This document shows, in pieces, positions 32,346 to 40,500 of a stretch of DNA of 64,000 nucleotides (positions within the stretch are counted from its first letter, which is position 1; every line of letters begins with the position of its first letter). Made by a program: the position numbers and the translations under genes. The notes beneath the pieces are model-generated. The model had not been told where the DNA came from. It was given only the letters and a program-made list of their open reading frames with translations, and made no database searches. The stretch comes from Marinilabiliaceae bacterium ANBcel2. Its GTDB lineage: Bacteria > Bacteroidota > Bacteroidia > Bacteroidales > Marinilabiliaceae. The stretch spans positions 124,001 to 188,000 of the forward strand of contig JARULA010000003.1 in the NCBI GenBank assembly GCA_029688995.1, written 5' to 3'.

Positions 32346-32993
32346 TTACAGTTGAAATTCACTCTTTTTTTTTAGTTTGTATCTGCAGCTGTTTTCCGAT
32401 AACTCTATTTCAATGATATCTATAACAAGCAAATTTACTATTATTTTTTCGGCATGCCATCGGTTTATTTTAGCCAGTTTTCTAAATTGAGGAAGAGATA
32501 TTGAATCGTTTTCATTGAGATATTGGAGCAGAGAGTTTTCTGCTTTTGTTAATTTTAAAAAAGTTCCATCCTTTCTCTTTTTTCTGGCCCATACTTTTAA
32601 TAAAATTTTGTTTGCCAGTATGTTTTGATCTTTTACTCTAACATAAGCTTTATATTTTCCATCTTTTGCAGGGGCTTTATGCGGTCCATTACTGCTTTTA
32701 GGTACAAAAACTTCTAAAACGGTTTTTTTTTCCCAGCTGTATGTTTTTGTTGTAAAAATCACCTCGGGTTTACAGTAGAGTGAAGCTGCTGCCTCAACCA
32801 TATAGTACTCCTCGTCGGTTACAACACCATTTATTTTACCGTTATCTTTAACTCCTATAAGAAGTCTTCCTCCATCGGTATTGGCAAATGCTGCCAGTGA
32901 CCGTGCAATTTTTGCGGAATCATTTATTGCGTATTTAAAATCCTGAGTTTGATGTTCACCCTCGGAGATAAGATTTTTTAAATATTTATTCAC
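32346..32993 (-). CDS. AlbA_2 / Schlafen-type putative ATP- or nucleic-acid-binding protein, 215 aa
   Basis: The N-terminal AlbA_2 domain (EGEHQTQDFKYAINDSAKIARSL, then AFANTDGGRLLIGVKDNGKI, described in two parts) is at about residues 8-50, with a C-terminal winged-helix-like part (residues 150-205). Such proteins are often annotated as ATP-binding or as transcriptional regulators; the true role is unclear. I prefer a GTG start at 32993: AAAAGGGGTGACC just upstream looks like a ribosome-binding site, and upstream residues to a TTG at 33029 are not family-like. It converges with the GH3 gene (5-base gap) and diverges from the hydrogenase locus. Confidence 0.8.
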   Translation of the reverse strand: MNKYLKNLISEGEHQTQDFKYAINDSAKIARSLAAFANTDGGRLLIGVKDNGKINGVVTDEEYYMVEAAASLYCKPEVIFTTKTYSWEKKTVLEVFVPKSSNGPHKAPAKDGKYKAYVRVKDQNILANKILLKVWARKKRKDGTFLKLTKAENSLLQYLNENDSISLPQFRKLAKINRWHAEKIIVNLLVIDIIEIELSENSCRYKLKKKSEFQL

Positions 32994-33170
32994 GTGGTCA
33001 CCCCTTTTTAATAACCTACAAAATTGCAAAAAAACTTTTAGAGAGTGAATTTATTTTTAGGATAGTCTCTTTATCTTGATGTACAGTTGATTTTATTCTG
33101 CTTTATTTTAAAATTATTGTGGCTGATTTTTTTATTGTGTAACTTAAAGTTTTAAAACTATAGTATCAAT

Positions 33171-35036
33171 ATGCGCCAGTTAGTTGAAATAGATCCTCAA
33201 AAGTGTAATCTTAGTTTAACCTGTATAAGAACCTGTCCGGTTAAAGCTATAAAAATTGAGGATAATTATGCCAAAGTTGTTTCTTCACGGTGTATTGGAT
33301 GTGGACACTGTATTACAGTTTGTGGCAGGGGGGCTATCTATTATCGTCATGAGAGAGAAGCGGTCAATGAGCTGTTAAAATTGGATGAACCTGTTGCTGC
33401 ACTATGTGATCCGGCCATTTCGGCTGAGTTTCCTGATATAAGTGACTATAGAAAGTTTGTTTCTATGATTAGAACCATTGGGTTTGATTATGTTTTTGAA
33501 ACAAGCTTTGGGGTTGATCTTATTGCTCACCGTTATCGTGATCTCCACAGTGATTTTCATGGTAAATACTATATTCATACGGTGTGTCCGCCCGTGGTCT
33601 CTTTTATTGAGAAATTTCAACCCGAACTGGTATCCAACTTAGCCCCTCTTGTGCCTCCCTATATAGCTATGGCAAAGGTAATTCGTGATATGTATGGTAA
33701 ATCTCTAAAAATTGTCTATATAAGTTCTTGTGTTGCTGCAAAAGATGATGTTTTATCGGGATATAAGGATTGTAAAATAGATAGTGTCATCTCTTTTACC
33801 GAGTTGCGCGATATGTTTACTAATCATGATATATCAGAGAAGAATGTTGAGTATAGTGAGTTTGATCCGCCTGCCGGAAGAAAAGGGGGGCTTTTCCCCA
33901 TTAGTAGAGGGATGTTACAGGCTGTAGATATGTATCAGGATCTGCTCACCGGTAATATAATTATAGCTGAAGGGCGCAACAACTTTTTGCAGTCGGTATC
34001 AGAATTTAAAACTCAAAAAGGGTTGGATAAACATCTTGATCTCTTCTATTGTAAGGGATGTATTATGGGTCCGGGCACATCACCGGGGGGAAAGAAGTAT
34101 ATGAGACGCTCAGAGGTTATTAGATATGTGAACAAAAGATTAGAGCATAATGACTATATTGAGTGGAAAAGATTAATTGATAAATATAGTTTACTGGATC
34201 TTTCCCGAAGTTTTAGACCTCGGGATCGTCGCTTACCATCACCCTCGGAGTCGGAGATACGTAAGGTTTTAATTGAGATGGGTAAAACCGATAAAGAGGA
34301 TATGTTAAATTGTGGCTCTTGTGGTTATGTTACCTGTCGTGAATTTGCTGTTGCATATTGTCAGGGACTCACAAATTTTGAGATGTGTTATACATTTACA
34401 ATTAATAAGCTTCACTCTTTTATTGATAAAGTAAATTCAGCAAATGAAAAGCTAAAAAATACCAAAAAGGCATTAAAAGAGAGTGAGGAGAAGGCTCGAA
34501 GAGGGGAGACAGCAGCTCTTGAATCGGCCGGCATTACTACGGCAATGCTTGATAAAATCAAATCCGGAGTTGTTATAGTCGATGAGAATTTGAGAATTGT
34601 TGAGTCTAATCGTGCTTTTGTTGATATGATTGGTGAAGATGCTATTGAAATTAATGAGTTAATCCCCGGTTTAAAAGGAGCCGAGCTTGATTCGCTGGTT
34701 CCGTTTTATCGACTTTTTTTAACGGTTTTGCGTTCGGGACAAGATCTTCTTGACAGAGATACCCGACTGGGAGATACTCTTGTTAATGTTTCGGTTTTTA
34801 CAATTAAAAAACAGCAGGTTGTTGGCGGAATTATTAGAGATCTTACATCTCCTGATATTCGTAAAGAGGAGATTATAAACCGGGCTCGAGAAGTTATTAG
34901 AGAGAATCTGGAGTCGGTTCAGCAGATAGCATTCCTTTTGGGTGAGAGTGCATCAAAAACTGAGAAGATCTTAACATCAATTATTGATGCAGAACGATTA
35001 GGAGCCGATGATAGTGCCAATTTAAATGATAGTTAA
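33171..35036 (+). CDS. Hydrogenase-like PAS sensor (HfsB/HydS type)
   Basis: The 621-aa protein combines a ferredoxin-like domain (residues 8-55), an [FeFe]-hydrogenase large-subunit-like domain (about 70-340), a four-Cys Fe-S domain (NCGSCGYVTCREF..., about 378-402), a coiled coil (about 415-450) and a PAS domain (about 460-560). H-cluster-like Cys remain in TVCPPV, SSCVAAK and FYCKGCIMGPG, where the last is CxxC instead of the catalytic CxxxC. In the first ferredoxin motif (Cys12, Ser15, Cys18, Cys22) one Cys ligand is Ser. Such proteins are regarded as H2 or redox sensors, not catalysts. Its stop overlaps the phosphatase ATG by one base, so the two are translationally coupled. Confidence 0.88.
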   Translation: MRQLVEIDPQKCNLSLTCIRTCPVKAIKIEDNYAKVVSSRCIGCGHCITVCGRGAIYYRHEREAVNELLKLDEPVAALCDPAISAEFPDISDYRKFVSMIRTIGFDYVFETSFGVDLIAHRYRDLHSDFHGKYYIHTVCPPVVSFIEKFQPELVSNLAPLVPPYIAMAKVIRDMYGKSLKIVYISSCVAAKDDVLSGYKDCKIDSVISFTELRDMFTNHDISEKNVEYSEFDPPAGRKGGLFPISRGMLQAVDMYQDLLTGNIIIAEGRNNFLQSVSEFKTQKGLDKHLDLFYCKGCIMGPGTSPGGKKYMRRSEVIRYVNKRLEHNDYIEWKRLIDKYSLLDLSRSFRPRDRRLPSPSESEIRKVLIEMGKTDKEDMLNCGSCGYVTCREFAVAYCQGLTNFEMCYTFTINKLHSFIDKVNSANEKLKNTKKALKESEEKARRGETAALESAGITTAMLDKIKSGVVIVDENLRIVESNRAFVDMIGEDAIEINELIPGLKGAELDSLVPFYRLFLTVLRSGQDLLDRDTRLGDTLVNVSVFTIKKQQVVGGIIRDLTSPDIRKEEIINRAREVIRENLESVQQIAFLLGESASKTEKILTSIIDAERLGADDSANLNDS

Positions 35037-36229
35037 TGTATTTAGCAAACGAAAACTCTTTTCTTGATATATTTTGTGAAAAGGTAAATCATCACGGAGA
35101 GATGGTTTGTGGTGATGTTTTTCTCTCGCGGCGCTATAAAGAGGAGGGTAGAACCATTATTGTCCTTTCAGATGGAATGGGGTCGGGCATTAAAGCTAAT
35201 GTTTTGGCCTCTATTACTGCCTCAATGGCACTCAATTTTACTTTGGAGCACAGGGAGGTTTGCAAGTCGGCCAAAATAATTATGGACACTCTTCCTGTAT
35301 GCTCTCAAAGAGGAACCAGCTATTCAACTTTTACAATTGTAGATATTGAAGATGATGGATATACCACTATTGTGGAGTACGATAATCCCGGATCTGTTAT
35401 TTTAAGAGAGGATACTTTTTTTGACCCCGGTTGGGAGAAGATTCCTCTGGAGAGTGAGAAGTATAAGAATAAACATATAAAAACATGTAGTTTTTACGGT
35501 AAAAAGGAAGATCGTATTCTATTTTGGAGTGATGGAGTTGTGCAGGCCGGTATGGGATCTAAAAAGTATCCATATGGGTGGGGCAGAGATGCTGTATTAA
35601 AAGTGCTGCCTGAGATAATTACAGGTAATCCTGCTATTTCATCCTCAAAACTTGCACGGCGAATTGTTTCCACTGCTTTAAGACTTGATGGCGGGGATGC
35701 AAAAGATGATACCTCTGCCGCTGTTGTTTACTTTAGAGAGCCTCGCAAACTACTTCTTGTATCGGGTCCTCCCTTTAATGATAAAACCGATCACAGTTTT
35801 GCAAAAAAAGTTGAACGTTTTGATGGAAAAAAAATTATTGCAGGGGGTACTACTGCTCAAATTATAGCACGCGAGTTATCGCTCCATTTTGAACAACATA
35901 CTAACAGAGTTGACTCAGATTTGCCTCCTATATCTTATATTCAGGGTATCGATTTGGTTACCGAAGGTATTCTCACATTAAGCAAAGTACTCTCTTCACT
36001 TGAAGAGATGAAGAGCGATACCCGGTTAAAATATGGTGCTGCCGATCAAATTGTGAGGCTTTTTATAGAGAGTGACCGGATACATATAATAAACGGAACT
36101 CGTATAAATATGGCACATCAAGATCCCGAATTGCCCTTTGAACTTGAAATGCGTAAATCTATTATTAAAAGGCTTGTTACTGTTTTAGAGAGTAAATTCC
36201 TTAAGGAGGTGACCGTTGAGTATGTTTAA
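35036..36229 (+). CDS. SpoIIE-type PP2C phosphatase with extra C-terminal domain, 397 aa
   Basis: The N-terminal ~235 residues form a SpoIIE/PP2C serine-phosphatase domain with metal-binding motifs VLSDGMGSGIKANVLAS near residue 43, FWSDGVVQAGMG near 163 and GDAKDDTSAAVVYF near 222. The last ~155 residues have no domain I recognise; they start RKLLLVSGPPFND and contain a GGTTAQIIAREL stretch. It is coupled (1-base overlap) to the hydrogenase-like sensor and precedes hydBAC, so it likely dephosphorylates a regulator in response to the sensor. No anti-sigma factor, antagonist or kinase gene is adjacent; the target is unknown. Confidence 0.85.
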   Translation: MYLANENSFLDIFCEKVNHHGEMVCGDVFLSRRYKEEGRTIIVLSDGMGSGIKANVLASITASMALNFTLEHREVCKSAKIIMDTLPVCSQRGTSYSTFTIVDIEDDGYTTIVEYDNPGSVILREDTFFDPGWEKIPLESEKYKNKHIKTCSFYGKKEDRILFWSDGVVQAGMGSKKYPYGWGRDAVLKVLPEIITGNPAISSSKLARRIVSTALRLDGGDAKDDTSAAVVYFREPRKLLLVSGPPFNDKTDHSFAKKVERFDGKKIIAGGTTAQIIARELSLHFEQHTNRVDSDLPPISYIQGIDLVTEGILTLSKVLSSLEEMKSDTRLKYGAADQIVRLFIESDRIHIINGTRINMAHQDPELPFELEMRKSIIKRLVTVLESKFLKEVTVEYV

Positions 36230-36353: not shown

Positions 36354-38219
36354 ATGGATCTTATAAATTCACCCGAGAAGTTGCAGCAACTTAAAACTAC
36401 TCTTGTTAACCAAAAAAAAGCTAAATTGAAGCTGGAACATGAAGGCGGCAGAATTCAGGTAAAGGTTTCAATGTCAACCTGTGGAATAGCTTCGGGCGCA
36501 GGCGAGGTTAAAGATTTTTTTGAGGAGAAGCTTGATTTGGAGAATATAAATGCAGATATAGTTTCAACAGGATGTATGGGATACTGTTATGCAGAGCCCA
36601 CAGTTGAAATAACTTTACCGGGAGGTGAGCCTGTTATATTTTCAAATGTTGATATGGTTAGAGCCGGAGAGCTGGTTAATGATTTTATTAAAGAGAGAAA
36701 GAGTGCTGTAAACACTATTCCGCATAAAAGCAGAAAGCCGGGAGGAGCTGTTGAAAAAGGGAAACAGTATCGCATTGCATTGAGAAATTGCGGATTTATA
36801 AATCCTGAAGATATAAGAGAGTATATTGCTGCTGAGGGATATGATGCATTGCGAATGGCCCTTACCGAAATGACTCCTGATGAGGTGATTGAGGTTGTTA
36901 AAAAGTCGGGGCTGCGAGGTCGTGGCGGGGGAGGTTTTCCTACCGGGTTAAAATGGGAGTTATCTGCTAAAGCTGAGTGTCGTAATGAGAAATTTGTAGT
37001 TTGTAATGCTGATGAAGGTGATCCCGGTGCTTTTATGGACAGATCTCTTTTAGAGGGTGACCCCCATTCGATACTTGAGGCTATGGCCTTATGTGGATAT
37101 AGTATTGGTTCAAATAAAGGAGTTATCTATATAAGGGCTGAGTACCCTTTAGCAATTGAGCGTTTAAAAACAGCAATTACCCAGGCTAAAGAGACACAAC
37201 TTTTGGGGTCGGATATAATGGGAACAGGCTTTAATTTTGATATTGAGATACGTTATGGAGCAGGAGCATTTGTTTGCGGAGAAGAGACTGCTCTTATTCA
37301 CTCAATGGAGGGTTTAAGAGGAGAGCCAGGAGTTAAGCCTCCATTTCCTGCCGAAAAGGGGTATAAGGGTGAGCCTACAAATGTTAATAATGTGGAGACA
37401 TTTGCCAATATCCCCCTTATTCTACTAATGGGGGCAGAGTGGTTTTCAAAGATAGGAACAGAAAAGAGCAAGGGAACAAAGGTTTTTGCTCTTGCCGGGA
37501 AAATAAATAATGTGGGTCTTATTGAAGTGCCTATGGGGATGACTCTAAGAGAGGTTGTTTTTGATATAGGAGGGGGAATAAGAGGAGATAGGCAGTTTAA
37601 GGCTGTACAGACCGGCGGTCCGTCAGGCGGATGTTTAACTGTTAAACATCTGGATACACCAATAGATTATGAAAATCTTATTGAGAATGGATCTATGATG
37701 GGATCGGGTGGAATGATTGTAATGGATGAAGATGATTGTATGGTTGCTGTAGCAAGATTTTATCTTGATTTTACTGTAGAAGAGAGTTGTGGTAAATGTG
37801 CCCCATGTCGTATTGGTAATAAACGTCTTTATGAGATATTAGATAAAATCACATTGGGTAAATCGGTAAAAGATGATCTGTCGGGTTTACGTAATTTAGC
37901 TTCAGTAATAAAGGAGACCTCGTTGTGTGGCTTGGGTCAAACTTCACCCAATCCGGTACTCTCAACTATGGATAATTTTTATGATGAGTATAAAGCTCAT
38001 GTAATCGATGGAGATTGCCCGGCCGGTCAATGTCGGGCTCTTATGCGTTATGTTATTGATCCTCATTTATGTGTGGGTTGTACTTTATGTATGAGAGTGT
38101 GTCCGGTAGATGCAGTTTCGGGAGAGAAAAAGCAGGTGCACTCTATTGATACCTCAGTCTGTATAAAATGTGGCGCCTGCATAGAGAAGTGTAAATTTGG
38201 TGCAATATCCCTTCAGTAA
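36354..38219 (+). CDS. hydB: NADH-binding hydrogenase subunit HydB (NuoF/HndC-like)
   Basis: HydB couples NAD(H) through FMN to the hydrogenase. The 621-aa protein has an N-terminal thioredoxin-like [2Fe-2S] domain (STCGIASGA, then STGCMGYCYAEP), a NuoF core with GLRGRGGGGFPTGLKWE (near residue 182) and NADEGDPGAFMDR, an SLBB region, the [4Fe-4S] motif ESCGKCAPCRIG (near 478), and two C-terminal ferredoxin clusters (CVGCTLCMRVCPVDA, CIKCGACIEKCKFGA). I chose the ATG at 36354. With HydA and HydC it makes the trimer seen in electron-bifurcating hydrogenases (known from Thermotoga); whether this one bifurcates is inferred. Confidence 0.94.
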   Translation: MDLINSPEKLQQLKTTLVNQKKAKLKLEHEGGRIQVKVSMSTCGIASGAGEVKDFFEEKLDLENINADIVSTGCMGYCYAEPTVEITLPGGEPVIFSNVDMVRAGELVNDFIKERKSAVNTIPHKSRKPGGAVEKGKQYRIALRNCGFINPEDIREYIAAEGYDALRMALTEMTPDEVIEVVKKSGLRGRGGGGFPTGLKWELSAKAECRNEKFVVCNADEGDPGAFMDRSLLEGDPHSILEAMALCGYSIGSNKGVIYIRAEYPLAIERLKTAITQAKETQLLGSDIMGTGFNFDIEIRYGAGAFVCGEETALIHSMEGLRGEPGVKPPFPAEKGYKGEPTNVNNVETFANIPLILLMGAEWFSKIGTEKSKGTKVFALAGKINNVGLIEVPMGMTLREVVFDIGGGIRGDRQFKAVQTGGPSGGCLTVKHLDTPIDYENLIENGSMMGSGGMIVMDEDDCMVAVARFYLDFTVEESCGKCAPCRIGNKRLYEILDKITLGKSVKDDLSGLRNLASVIKETSLCGLGQTSPNPVLSTMDNFYDEYKAHVIDGDCPAGQCRALMRYVIDPHLCVGCTLCMRVCPVDAVSGEKKQVHSIDTSVCIKCGACIEKCKFGAISLQ

Positions 38220-38246: not shown

Positions 38247-40013
38247 ATGACAAAAGTTAGTTTAACAATAGATAATCGTAAGGTAGAAACTGATAAAGAG
38301 TCAACAATTTTACAGGCTGCCCGTTTAATAGGAGTTAATATTCCCACTCTTTGCTATATGAAGCTTGATGATCTTAATTTTGAAAACAAGCCAGGTGGAT
38401 GTAGAATTTGTGTTGTTGAGGTTGAGGGAGCAAAGAATCTTATGCCTGCCTGTAAAACAGAGTGTCGTGATGGGATGGTGGTACATACTCATTCAGTGAG
38501 AGTTGTTAATGCCCGGCGCACCGTGCTTGAGCTTATTTTGTCTGATCACCCTGCCGAATGTTTAATTTGTGCCCGCTCAGGTGATTGTGATTTGCAATCA
38601 CTTGCTCAACAGCTTGGAATAAGAGAGATTCATTATCAGGGTGAACAGTCCCATTATAAAAGTGATCAATCTCCTGCTATTATAAGGGAGATGGATAAAT
38701 GTATAATGTGTCGAAGGTGTGAAACCATTTGTAACGATGTGCAAACAGTAGGTACTTTGTCGGCTATCAACAGGGGTTTTAGAGCTGTGGTTGCAACTCC
38801 TTTTGAAACCGATCTTGACCACTCCTCTTGCACATATTGCGGCCAGTGTGTGGCAGTTTGTCCAACCGGAGCTTTAACAGAGAAAGATTATACCCGTAAA
38901 GTTATTGAAGCTATTGTTGACCCTTCAAAAACTGTGGTAGTGCAAACCGCTCCTGCTGTTAGAGCTGCATTGGGAGAGTCGTTTGGAATGTCGCCGGGGA
39001 CTCTGGTAACGGGCAAAATGGTTGCAGCTCTTAAAAAACTGGGTTTCGACTATGTTTTTGATACCGATTTTGCTGCCGATTTAACTATCATGGAAGAGGG
39101 AGCCGAAATATTGGATAGATTAACCCGTTACTTTGATGGTGATAGTAATGTGAAGTTACCAATTTTAACAAGCTGTTGTCCCGGATGGGTTAACTTTCTT
39201 GAATACCATTTTCCCGAGATGAAAGATATACCATCAACAGCAAAATCGCCTCAGCAGATGTTTGGTGCAATAGCAAAGAGTTACTTGGCTCAAAAAATTG
39301 GTGTTGCTCGCGAGGATCTTTTTGTGGTTTCGGTAATGCCTTGTTTGGCTAAAAAATATGAGTGTACACGTGAAGAGTTTTTTATTAATGGTGATCCCGA
39401 TGTAGATGTCTCTATCTCTACACGTGAGCTGGCACATTTAATTCGTAATGCAAATCTCCATTTTGAAGGTCTTACCGATGAAGAGTTTGATCATCCTATG
39501 GGTGAATCCACCGGAGCCTCTGTTATATTTGGAACAACAGGAGGCGTTATTGAGGCAGCGGTTCGCAGTGCATACGAACTCTTTACAAAAAAAGAGCTTA
39601 AAAAGGTTGATTTTGAAGAGTTAAGAGGAATGGAAGGTATTCGTAAAGCTGAAGTAGATTTTGACGGAGTGCTTTTAAAGGTTGGGATAGCACACGGGTT
39701 GGGTAATGCACGTAAATTGCTTGAAGAGATTAAATCGGGCGAGTCCGATTTTCATGCAATTGAGATAATGGCGTGTCCCGGAGGATGTATTGGAGGTGGA
39801 GGTCAGCCATATCATCATGGAAATGTTGAGATATTAAAAAAGAGGCAAAAAGCAATTTATAAAGAGGATAAGGGAAAAGCGATAAGAAAATCTCATGAAA
39901 ATCCTTATATACAGCAACTCTATCGTGAATTTTTAGGAGAACCTTTAAGTCATAAGGCTCATAAGCTACTTCATACATGTTATTTTGATCGTAAAAAGAA
40001 GATTGAATTTTAA
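38247..40013 (+). CDS. hydA: Catalytic [FeFe] hydrogenase subunit HydA
   Basis: HydA makes or consumes H2 at the H-cluster. The 588-aa protein carries an N-terminal [2Fe-2S] domain, the His-ligated cluster motif HPAECLICARSGDC (near residue 95), two [4Fe-4S] clusters (CIMCRRCETICND, CTYCGQCVAVCPTGA), and the three H-cluster signatures TSCCPGWVNF, MPCLAKKYE and MACPGGCIGGGG. A small-subunit-like C-terminus (YREFLGEPLSHKAHKLLH) follows. All catalytic Cys are intact, unlike the sensor paralogue upstream. Maturases HydE, F and G are not in the window but must be elsewhere for activity. hydC begins 10 bases after the stop. Confidence 0.97.
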   Translation: MTKVSLTIDNRKVETDKESTILQAARLIGVNIPTLCYMKLDDLNFENKPGGCRICVVEVEGAKNLMPACKTECRDGMVVHTHSVRVVNARRTVLELILSDHPAECLICARSGDCDLQSLAQQLGIREIHYQGEQSHYKSDQSPAIIREMDKCIMCRRCETICNDVQTVGTLSAINRGFRAVVATPFETDLDHSSCTYCGQCVAVCPTGALTEKDYTRKVIEAIVDPSKTVVVQTAPAVRAALGESFGMSPGTLVTGKMVAALKKLGFDYVFDTDFAADLTIMEEGAEILDRLTRYFDGDSNVKLPILTSCCPGWVNFLEYHFPEMKDIPSTAKSPQQMFGAIAKSYLAQKIGVAREDLFVVSVMPCLAKKYECTREEFFINGDPDVDVSISTRELAHLIRNANLHFEGLTDEEFDHPMGESTGASVIFGTTGGVIEAAVRSAYELFTKKELKKVDFEELRGMEGIRKAEVDFDGVLLKVGIAHGLGNARKLLEEIKSGESDFHAIEIMACPGGCIGGGGQPYHHGNVEILKKRQKAIYKEDKGKAIRKSHENPYIQQLYREFLGEPLSHKAHKLLHTCYFDRKKKIEF

Positions 40014-40023
40014 AACTGTAGTT

Positions 40024-40500
40024 ATGGCAAAAATAAGAATTCCTCAAAATAAGGTAGAGGAGCTGCGGCAGATATGTAAAAGTTTTAATTATGATAAAAA
40101 TGAGCTGATAAATGTATTGCATTCGGCTCAAAAACTGTTTGGGTATCTTCCTGCCGAAGTTCAGGAATTAGTAGCTCAAGAGCTTAATGTTCCTCTTGCA
40201 AAAGTTTATGGAGTAGTATCATTTTACTCTTTTTTTGATATGGTGCCCAAGGGTAAGTATCCGGTGTCAATCTGTTTGGGAACCGCCTGCTATGTTCGTG
40301 GTGCTGAAAAGGTTTTAGCAGAGTTTAAAAAACATATAGGTATTAATGTAGGAGAGACCTCTGCCGATGGTAAGTTTTCAATTAGCTGTCTTAGATGTGT
40401 TGGTGCATGCGGATTAGCTCCGGTTGTAACAATTGGGGAGAGAGTTTACGGGCGAGTTGCTCCCGATGATGTTCAAAAAATTTTAAAAGATTATTATTAG
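40024..40500 (+). CDS. hydC: NuoE-like hydrogenase subunit HydC
   Basis: HydC carries a thioredoxin-like [2Fe-2S] cluster next to HydB. The 158-aa protein has the NuoE helical N-terminus (LINVLHSAQKLFGYLPAEVQ, about residues 25-44), GVVSFYSFF, and the four Cys ligands in CLGTACYVRGA and CLRCVGACGLAP. I chose the ATG at 40024; an upstream in-frame start at 39985 would overlap hydA by 29 bases. It is the last gene of the hydrogenase locus. Confidence 0.93.
   Translation: MAKIRIPQNKVEELRQICKSFNYDKNELINVLHSAQKLFGYLPAEVQELVAQELNVPLAKVYGVVSFYSFFDMVPKGKYPVSICLGTACYVRGAEKVLAEFKKHIGINVGETSADGKFSISCLRCVGACGLAPVVTIGERVYGRVAPDDVQKILKDYY

Follow-up and report, generated by a model that had tools for sequence, protein, structure and literature searches.

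A putative sensory [FeFe]-hydrogenase and its PP2C phosphatase ahead of hydBAC in a Marinilabiliaceae bacterium

To what does a hydrogenase-like protein report when the next gene encodes a protein phosphatase? The question is raised by a locus of Marinilabiliaceae bacterium ANBcel2 (Bacteroidota; Bacteroidales), located in a stretch of 64,000 nucleotides (contig JARULA010000003.1, positions 124,001 to 188,000), referred to as the window. An earlier note on this DNA had described two open reading frames overlapping by one base ahead of hydBAC (33171-35036 and 35036-36229), and these coordinates are exact. The stop codon of the sensor and the start codon of the phosphatase share one base, in TAATG. 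The genes are organized as follows:

33171..35036, + strand: sensory [FeFe]-hydrogenase homologue (HydS/HfsB-like, HydDB C3-like), 621 residues, ATG start
35036..36229, + strand: PP2C/SpoIIE-family phosphatase (HfsC-like), 397 residues, ATG start
36354..38219, + strand: hydB, NuoF-like subunit
38247..40013, + strand: hydA, catalytic [FeFe]-hydrogenase, NCBIfam group A6
40024..40500, + strand: hydC, NuoE-like [2Fe-2S] subunit

We consider it fairly likely that the pair is a C3-type sensory hydrogenase with its own PP2C phosphatase ahead of hydBAC, relaying the H2 or redox state either to a Ser/Thr target encoded elsewhere or to HydABC. The hydB, hydA and hydC genes lie downstream of the pair on the same strand, and approximately 125 bp of non-coding DNA separate the phosphatase stop codon from the hydB ATG. 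As already pointed out in the earlier note, no kinase, anti-sigma factor or response regulator adjoins the pair within the window, and the phosphatase target is not inferable from the neighbours.

Sensor and phosphatase proteins

According to Pfam and AlphaFold2, the sensor consists of two [4Fe-4S] clusters, an H-domain, an FeS motif, a coiled coil, a PAS domain and a long helix, in this order. The corresponding regions, all on the + strand, are:

33171..33350: N-terminal 2x[4Fe-4S] ferredoxin domain (Pfam; alignment)
33204-33236 (residues 12-22): first ferredoxin motif, C12-x2-S15-x2-C18-x3-C22P (alignment)
33393..34073: H-domain (PF02906), with H-cluster cysteines C139, C187, C294 and C297
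34305..34388: C-terminal FeS motif (PF04060), C381-x2-C384-x4-C389-x16-C406
34389..34553: predicted 55-residue coiled coil, residues 407-461 (AlphaFold2, predicted local distance difference test score about 57-85)
34566..34841: PAS domain, residues 466-557 (AlphaFold2 topology; PAS matches in orthologues)
34878..35018: conserved C-terminal helix, residues 570-616 (...VQQIAFLLGESASKTEKxLxSII; alignment; low-confidence helix in the AlphaFold2 model)

Pfam matches in the sensor include the 2x4Fe-4S domain, Fe_hyd_lg_C (7.5e-33) and the PF04060 FeS motif. The H-cluster cysteines are all kept (4/4), and the first 351 residues of the model superpose on CbA5H (8zqd; Z 40.1, 348 residues, 2.6 A). Residues of the catalytic enzymes are replaced at positions 299 (C to V), 353 (M to S) and 497 (M to F), and these changes in the proton path and active site are those of sensory enzymes. 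HydF maturase is encoded in the same genome (434 bits), so the H-cluster can probably be made. Residue 15, at the second Cys ligand position of the first ferredoxin motif, is Ser in the window sensor and in 39 of 49 orthologues, and Cys in all of the 59 sensors of other types that were aligned (29 + 30). A Ser-ligated or three-iron form of this cluster is possible. The Cx2Cx4Cx16C spacing of the FeS motif is exactly that given for groups C and D (PMC8163306).

The window sensor continues for 215 residues past C406, a part in which AlphaFold2 predicts a PAS fold. The PAS domain attributed to this hydrogenase homologue in the earlier note is borne out by the AlphaFold2 topology and by Pfam matches in orthologues (PAS_8, 3.7e-4 in L056, 8.6e-4 in L093 and 6.2e-8 in L100), the window protein itself falling below the Pfam threshold. 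In the C-terminal helix, the VQQIAFLLGESASKTEK motif is strongly kept, and the helix is a candidate contact to the phosphatase. None of the sensor positions conserved in more than 90% of sequences deviates in the window protein.

Two regions, both on the + strand, make up the phosphatase:

35060..35743: PP2C catalytic domain, with metal-binding D27, D46, D166, D224 and D225 all kept
35744..36229: conserved C-terminal domain, residues 237-397 (GPP...GGTTA...LPP...IDLVTEGI...SD...GT..N), found in all homologues

The SpoIIE Pfam match (2.1e-11, 44.6 bits, cut-off 25) agrees with the PP2C fold of the model, which aligns to 3pu9 (Z 25.3, 2.8 A, 219 residues) and to SpoIIE 5ucg (Z 23.4). The metal aspartates are kept throughout the homologues, as evidenced by alignments of 43 and 64 sequences. 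The first strand begins at residue 9; the protein starts directly at the catalytic domain and is thus without a regulatory N-terminal part. The C-terminal domain has no Pfam match at E<=5, and a comparison with PDB sequences, made by sequence search only, gave insignificant matches, including sugar isomerase domains (E 0.17). Among conserved positions of the phosphatase, only A335 and K374 deviate in the window protein, and the reading frames of both genes are intact.

Recurrence, fusions and a separable gene block

Locus counts are based on 48 non-redundant sensor loci. The same gene pair, which the earlier note had proposed to look for across Bacteroidota, recurs: the phosphatase is the next gene after the sensor in 44 of the 48 loci, an adjacency that is not due to chance. 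Catalytic hyd genes lie within 10 kb of the sensor in 41/48. Sensor orthologues (57-70% identity) are present in most genomes of the window's family; L056 is a Marinilabiliaceae metagenome-assembled genome. The phosphatase was found in 17 of 395 genomes spread over the phylum, and the usual order in other classes is Rex-HydC-HydB-HydA-sensor-phosphatase. A single relative was found in one cross-phylum scan.

The domains of the two proteins also occur in one chain. Proteins of 1260-1340 residues, featuring an Fe-hydrogenase, several PAS domains and SpoIIE, were identified in three Bacteroidales families. These fusions are the examples found, and no fusion frequency can be derived from them. They are listed with one variant of the pair:

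L076 1568-5587, - strand: single-chain hydrogenase-PAS-SpoIIE fusion
L075 292-4074, - strand: single-chain hydrogenase-PAS-SpoIIE fusion
L185 3755-7552, + strand: single-chain hydrogenase-PAS-SpoIIE fusion
L057 6231-8174, - strand: sensor orthologue without H-cluster cysteines, phosphatase still adjoining

Such natural fusions are a more direct argument than gene order for coupling between the sensor and phosphatase domains. In L057, the same sensor is joined to a histidine kinase. Loci L097 (7512-9452), L098 and L099 encode a 2Fe-2S thioredoxin-like protein, a free PAS protein and the same phosphatase, C-terminal domain included, and have no hydrogenase domain; they appear to combine the same output with another sensor. 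Separately, the window's family includes Fe-hydrogenase sensors (HydDB C2-like) that carry a methyl-accepting chemotaxis signalling domain in the same chain (L072 7370-9172, + strand; L073 6856-8739, - strand).

Downstream of the pair, most members of the family have genes for a DRTGG protein, a 138-residue RsbW/RsbT-like ATPase (HATP8; PF13581 5.9e-11, N and G boxes intact), a 459-residue group D-like sensor, a second DRTGG protein, PHP, a second ATPase, a 2Fe-2S protein, HydB and HydA. Recurrence with one partner family, which the earlier note held would support a relay, is thus seen in part, as DRTGG and the RsbW-like ATPase are linked to the sensor in 28/48 loci; however, the block is separable. 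As an operon of its own, with HydB-HydA-HydC as its last genes, it is present in G425, a genome without any such sensor, and also in G490 and G477, in which no pair adjoins it. The G458 copy has the same beginning but is cut off by the end of the contig. The ten-gene operon (DRTGG, RsbW-like ATPase, group D-like sensor, DRTGG, PHP, ATPase, 2Fe-2S, HydB, HydA and HydC) maps to:

L189 3371-11924
L190 1451-10096
L192 4887-13333

No DRTGG domain over the cut-off is encoded in the window genome, and HATP8 and the group D-like protein are absent from it as well. G403, G460 and G491 carry the pair and neither DRTGG nor HATP8. In 13 genomes of other classes with the pair, there is no close DRTGG/RsbW-like match, two weak ones (42-48 bits) occurring in G345 and G188. 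The separate operon and the absence from genomes with the pair leave the block unproven as a partner of the phosphatase, and DRTGG/HATP8 was rejected as the general partner. Two separate control modules thus exist, of which the window genome keeps just the sensor/phosphatase pair, having lost the block. In this small genome, the phosphatase target must be something other than the candidate kinase/DRTGG set.

The window arrangement also differs from that of relatives in the hyd genes. Against the NCBIfam group A6 model (cut-off 765), HydA reaches 894.5 bits, and it is accompanied by HydB and HydC, as in the NADH-dependent, bifurcating HydABC of that group. The genome encodes exactly two Fe_hyd_lg_C proteins, HydA and the sensor, and hydBAC are its sole catalytic [FeFe]-hydrogenase genes. 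In relatives, the 2Fe-2S gene and the gene for a 597-residue HydB are separate. The N-terminus of the window HydB (36354-36740) resembles the stand-alone 2Fe-2S protein of relatives and is followed by the HydB core, and the N-terminal 2Fe-2S part of the 597-residue HydB is missing. Six companion genes that precede HydB in relatives are absent from the window genome. Taken together, the six missing genes and the joined 2Fe-2S part of HydB may reflect loss of a middle block with fusion at its edge. Upstream, the HydCBA set and an 84-residue 2Fe-2S gene of relatives are also absent from the window; the 84-residue protein is therefore ruled out as a required part.

One further gene lies beside the pair:

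32346-33029, - strand: divergent SLFN/AlbA_2 protein, C-terminal part winged-helix-like (by eye)

This gene is often found beside the sensor locus in the family, but also occurs without the sensor. It was rejected as the output regulator, since it is present in G414 and G424 without the sensor and lies approximately 20-30 kb away in G418 and G400. SLFN/AlbA_2 is probably a mere neighbour.

Proposed signal path and possible targets

In the mechanism that we propose, H2, or the redox state set by H2, would be read at the H-cluster and 4Fe-4S clusters, the residues of which are in place. The state would pass via the FeS motif, coiled coil and PAS domain of the predicted structure to the long C-terminal helix, which may move in response and thereby hold or release the PP2C protein. 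The sensor would supply the regulatory part in trans, a view based on the finding that three other Bacteroidales carry these domains as a single protein. The phosphatase may then dephosphorylate a Ser/Thr target encoded elsewhere, such as a STAS-type partner-switch protein, or HydABC itself, and hydrogenase expression or activity would be adjusted to H2. In the window genome, the module would work without the DRTGG/RsbW-like ATPase block seen beside the pair in relatives.

Genetic data support a chain running from hfsB through hfsC: in Thermoanaerobacterium, both adhE expression and hydrogenase activity go up when hfsB is deleted, and wild-type hfsC and hfsD are required for the high-ethanol state (PMC5707799). 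The C-terminal cluster of the group D relative TamHydS is not reduced by H2 (PMC13104023), so transmission through this region need not be a redox change there.

Several observations weigh against a relay of this kind. What the relay assumes of H2 binding, of the phosphatase's control and of its target is inference. The L057 sensor has lost the H-cluster cysteines and keeps the phosphatase, and some members may therefore not sense H2. Loci L083 and L090 have a sensor and no adjacent phosphatase. No Pfam PAS call was obtained at E<=1e-3 in the window sensor itself, and a promoter and terminator scan of the locus gave nothing over chance level.

Alternatives concern the target, the signal and the state of the pair. 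Of the targets, a general-set STAS protein encoded elsewhere, with several PP2C inputs converging on one RsbW-like kinase, is possible, if somewhat unlikely. The genome encodes six SpoIIE proteins, one strong RsbW-like protein (C12:168046, 1.9e-23) and three small STAS proteins (C30:155271, C30:169566 and C12:201814). However, no RsbW-like kinase or STAS substrate is present in the phosphatase locus within the window, the copies found being generic and unlinked; the RsbW-like gene sits in a housekeeping neighbourhood, according to gene names assigned by eye, and sequence cannot tell the substrate class. We regard as doubtful the idea that the phosphatase acts directly on HydA, HydB, HydC or the sensor, which would amount to post-translational control. 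In its favour, catalytic hyd genes are the most constant neighbours of the pair, in several arrangements and in more than one class, and no regulator is constant. NADH-linked alcohol dehydrogenase (NADH-ADH) activity in hfs mutants is altered partly post-transcriptionally (PMC5707799), but a dedicated kinase is not linked, and L063 and L104 have the pair without hyd genes nearby. It is improbable that the pair feeds into a partner switch as one of its inputs, with the phosphatase acting on DRTGG or a protein handled by HATP8 in the manner of RsbU on RsbV under RsbW. DRTGG and HATP8 do follow the phosphatase directly in most of the loci that have them nearby, and are present unlinked in most other Bacteroidales with the pair. 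Against this stand the genomes listed above that have the pair without them, the window genome among these, and the block of G425, G490 and G477, which is self-contained and includes both HydBAC and a group D-like sensor.

As to the signal, the sensor may read the general redox state (ferredoxin/NADH poise, via Fe-S clusters or PAS) rather than H2, which we hold to be rather unlikely. The 84-residue 2Fe-2S gene, whose product is thioredoxin-like, lies ahead of the sensor in most relatives, a 2Fe-2S protein and a free PAS protein replace the hydrogenase sensor in family f14, and L057 retains the pair without H-cluster cysteines; the window sensor, however, keeps every H-cluster cysteine, and the 84-residue gene is absent. 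Decay of the pair after loss of its companions is very improbable: the genome has lost six companion genes along with the HydCBA and 2Fe-2S genes upstream, yet conserved residues and reading frames are preserved as described, and G403 and other classes also retain the pair in the absence of these companions. A more specific form of the proposed relay is tentative at best. The pair would be the one of two modules left before the sole hydrogenase. No dedicated kinase would be involved, the phosphatase would have HydABC or a shared STAS protein as its direct substrate, and the sensor would be tuned by a Ser-ligated ferredoxin cluster.

In the literature, we found no paper naming the phosphatase target of group C3 sensors in any species. 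The comparison separates two modules that are usually side by side, which narrows how C3 sensors pass on their signal. Carrying the pair alone, without the helper genes of its relatives, the window genome is a tidy case for finding the phosphatase substrate.

Comparison with known systems

HydDB names [FeFe] group C3 'phosphatase-linked', as putative (PMC5037454). The window pair matches group C3 in every feature tested, set against HydDB's description and not by HydDB's own clustering. Shared features are the H-domain with H-cluster cysteines, PAS, the adjacent Ser/Thr phosphatase and the hydrogenase genes beside them. In contrast, the window member has no other regulatory gene beside the pair and carries the Ser15 substitution of its family. 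C3 genes beside A3 hydrogenases have been reported in Hydrogenedentota (PMC11406978). To the known C3 type, the present analysis adds the separation of two modules, the fusions, a C-terminal phosphatase domain without a Pfam family and the family-wide Cys-to-Ser change.

Other sensors and phosphatases resemble the pair in part; for Firmicutes and Thermotoga, the comparison draws on published descriptions. TmHydS of Thermotoga maritima (group C) shares the 4Fe-4S clusters, PAS and an H-domain altered at positions 299, 353 and 497, but residue 497 is Ser in TmHydS and Phe in the window sensor. TamHydS (group D, M2e) has an H-domain and a C-terminal FeS motif and is encoded upstream of HydABC-type genes. 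However, it has no PAS and its chain ends after the FeS motif, and the window sensor does not fit this type. RsbU, RsbP and SpoIIE share the catalytic PP2C fold and metal ligands with the window phosphatase, which differs in its likely regulation via a separate sensor protein, its extra C-terminal domain and the lack of linked RsbV/RsbW.

Of the candidate relay put forward in the earlier note, the sensor and phosphatase stand as one unit before hydBAC, recurrent across Bacteroidota and with the same domains found in single-chain fusions, but the pairing is not new, group C3, R. albus and hfsBC being precedents. In Ruminococcus albus, Greene et al. 2019 (PMC6776011) described a PAS sensor (HydS) together with a Ser/Thr phosphatase, which are believed to adjust hydrogenase expression to H2. 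R. albus is, however, a Firmicute, in which the genes linked to HydS encode a ferredoxin-only hydrogenase and an alcohol/aldehyde dehydrogenase. In the hfsABCD genes of Thermoanaerobacterium, a PAS-bearing [FeFe] sensor is followed by a serine phosphatase and then by the catalytic hydrogenase. The latter is the ferredoxin-linked HfsD, as opposed to the bifurcating-type HydBAC of the window, and no hfsA-like gene lies beside the window pair. hfsB and hfsC deletions have been made previously (PMC5707799; PMC11837493), and HfsBC is the studied counterpart of the window pair.

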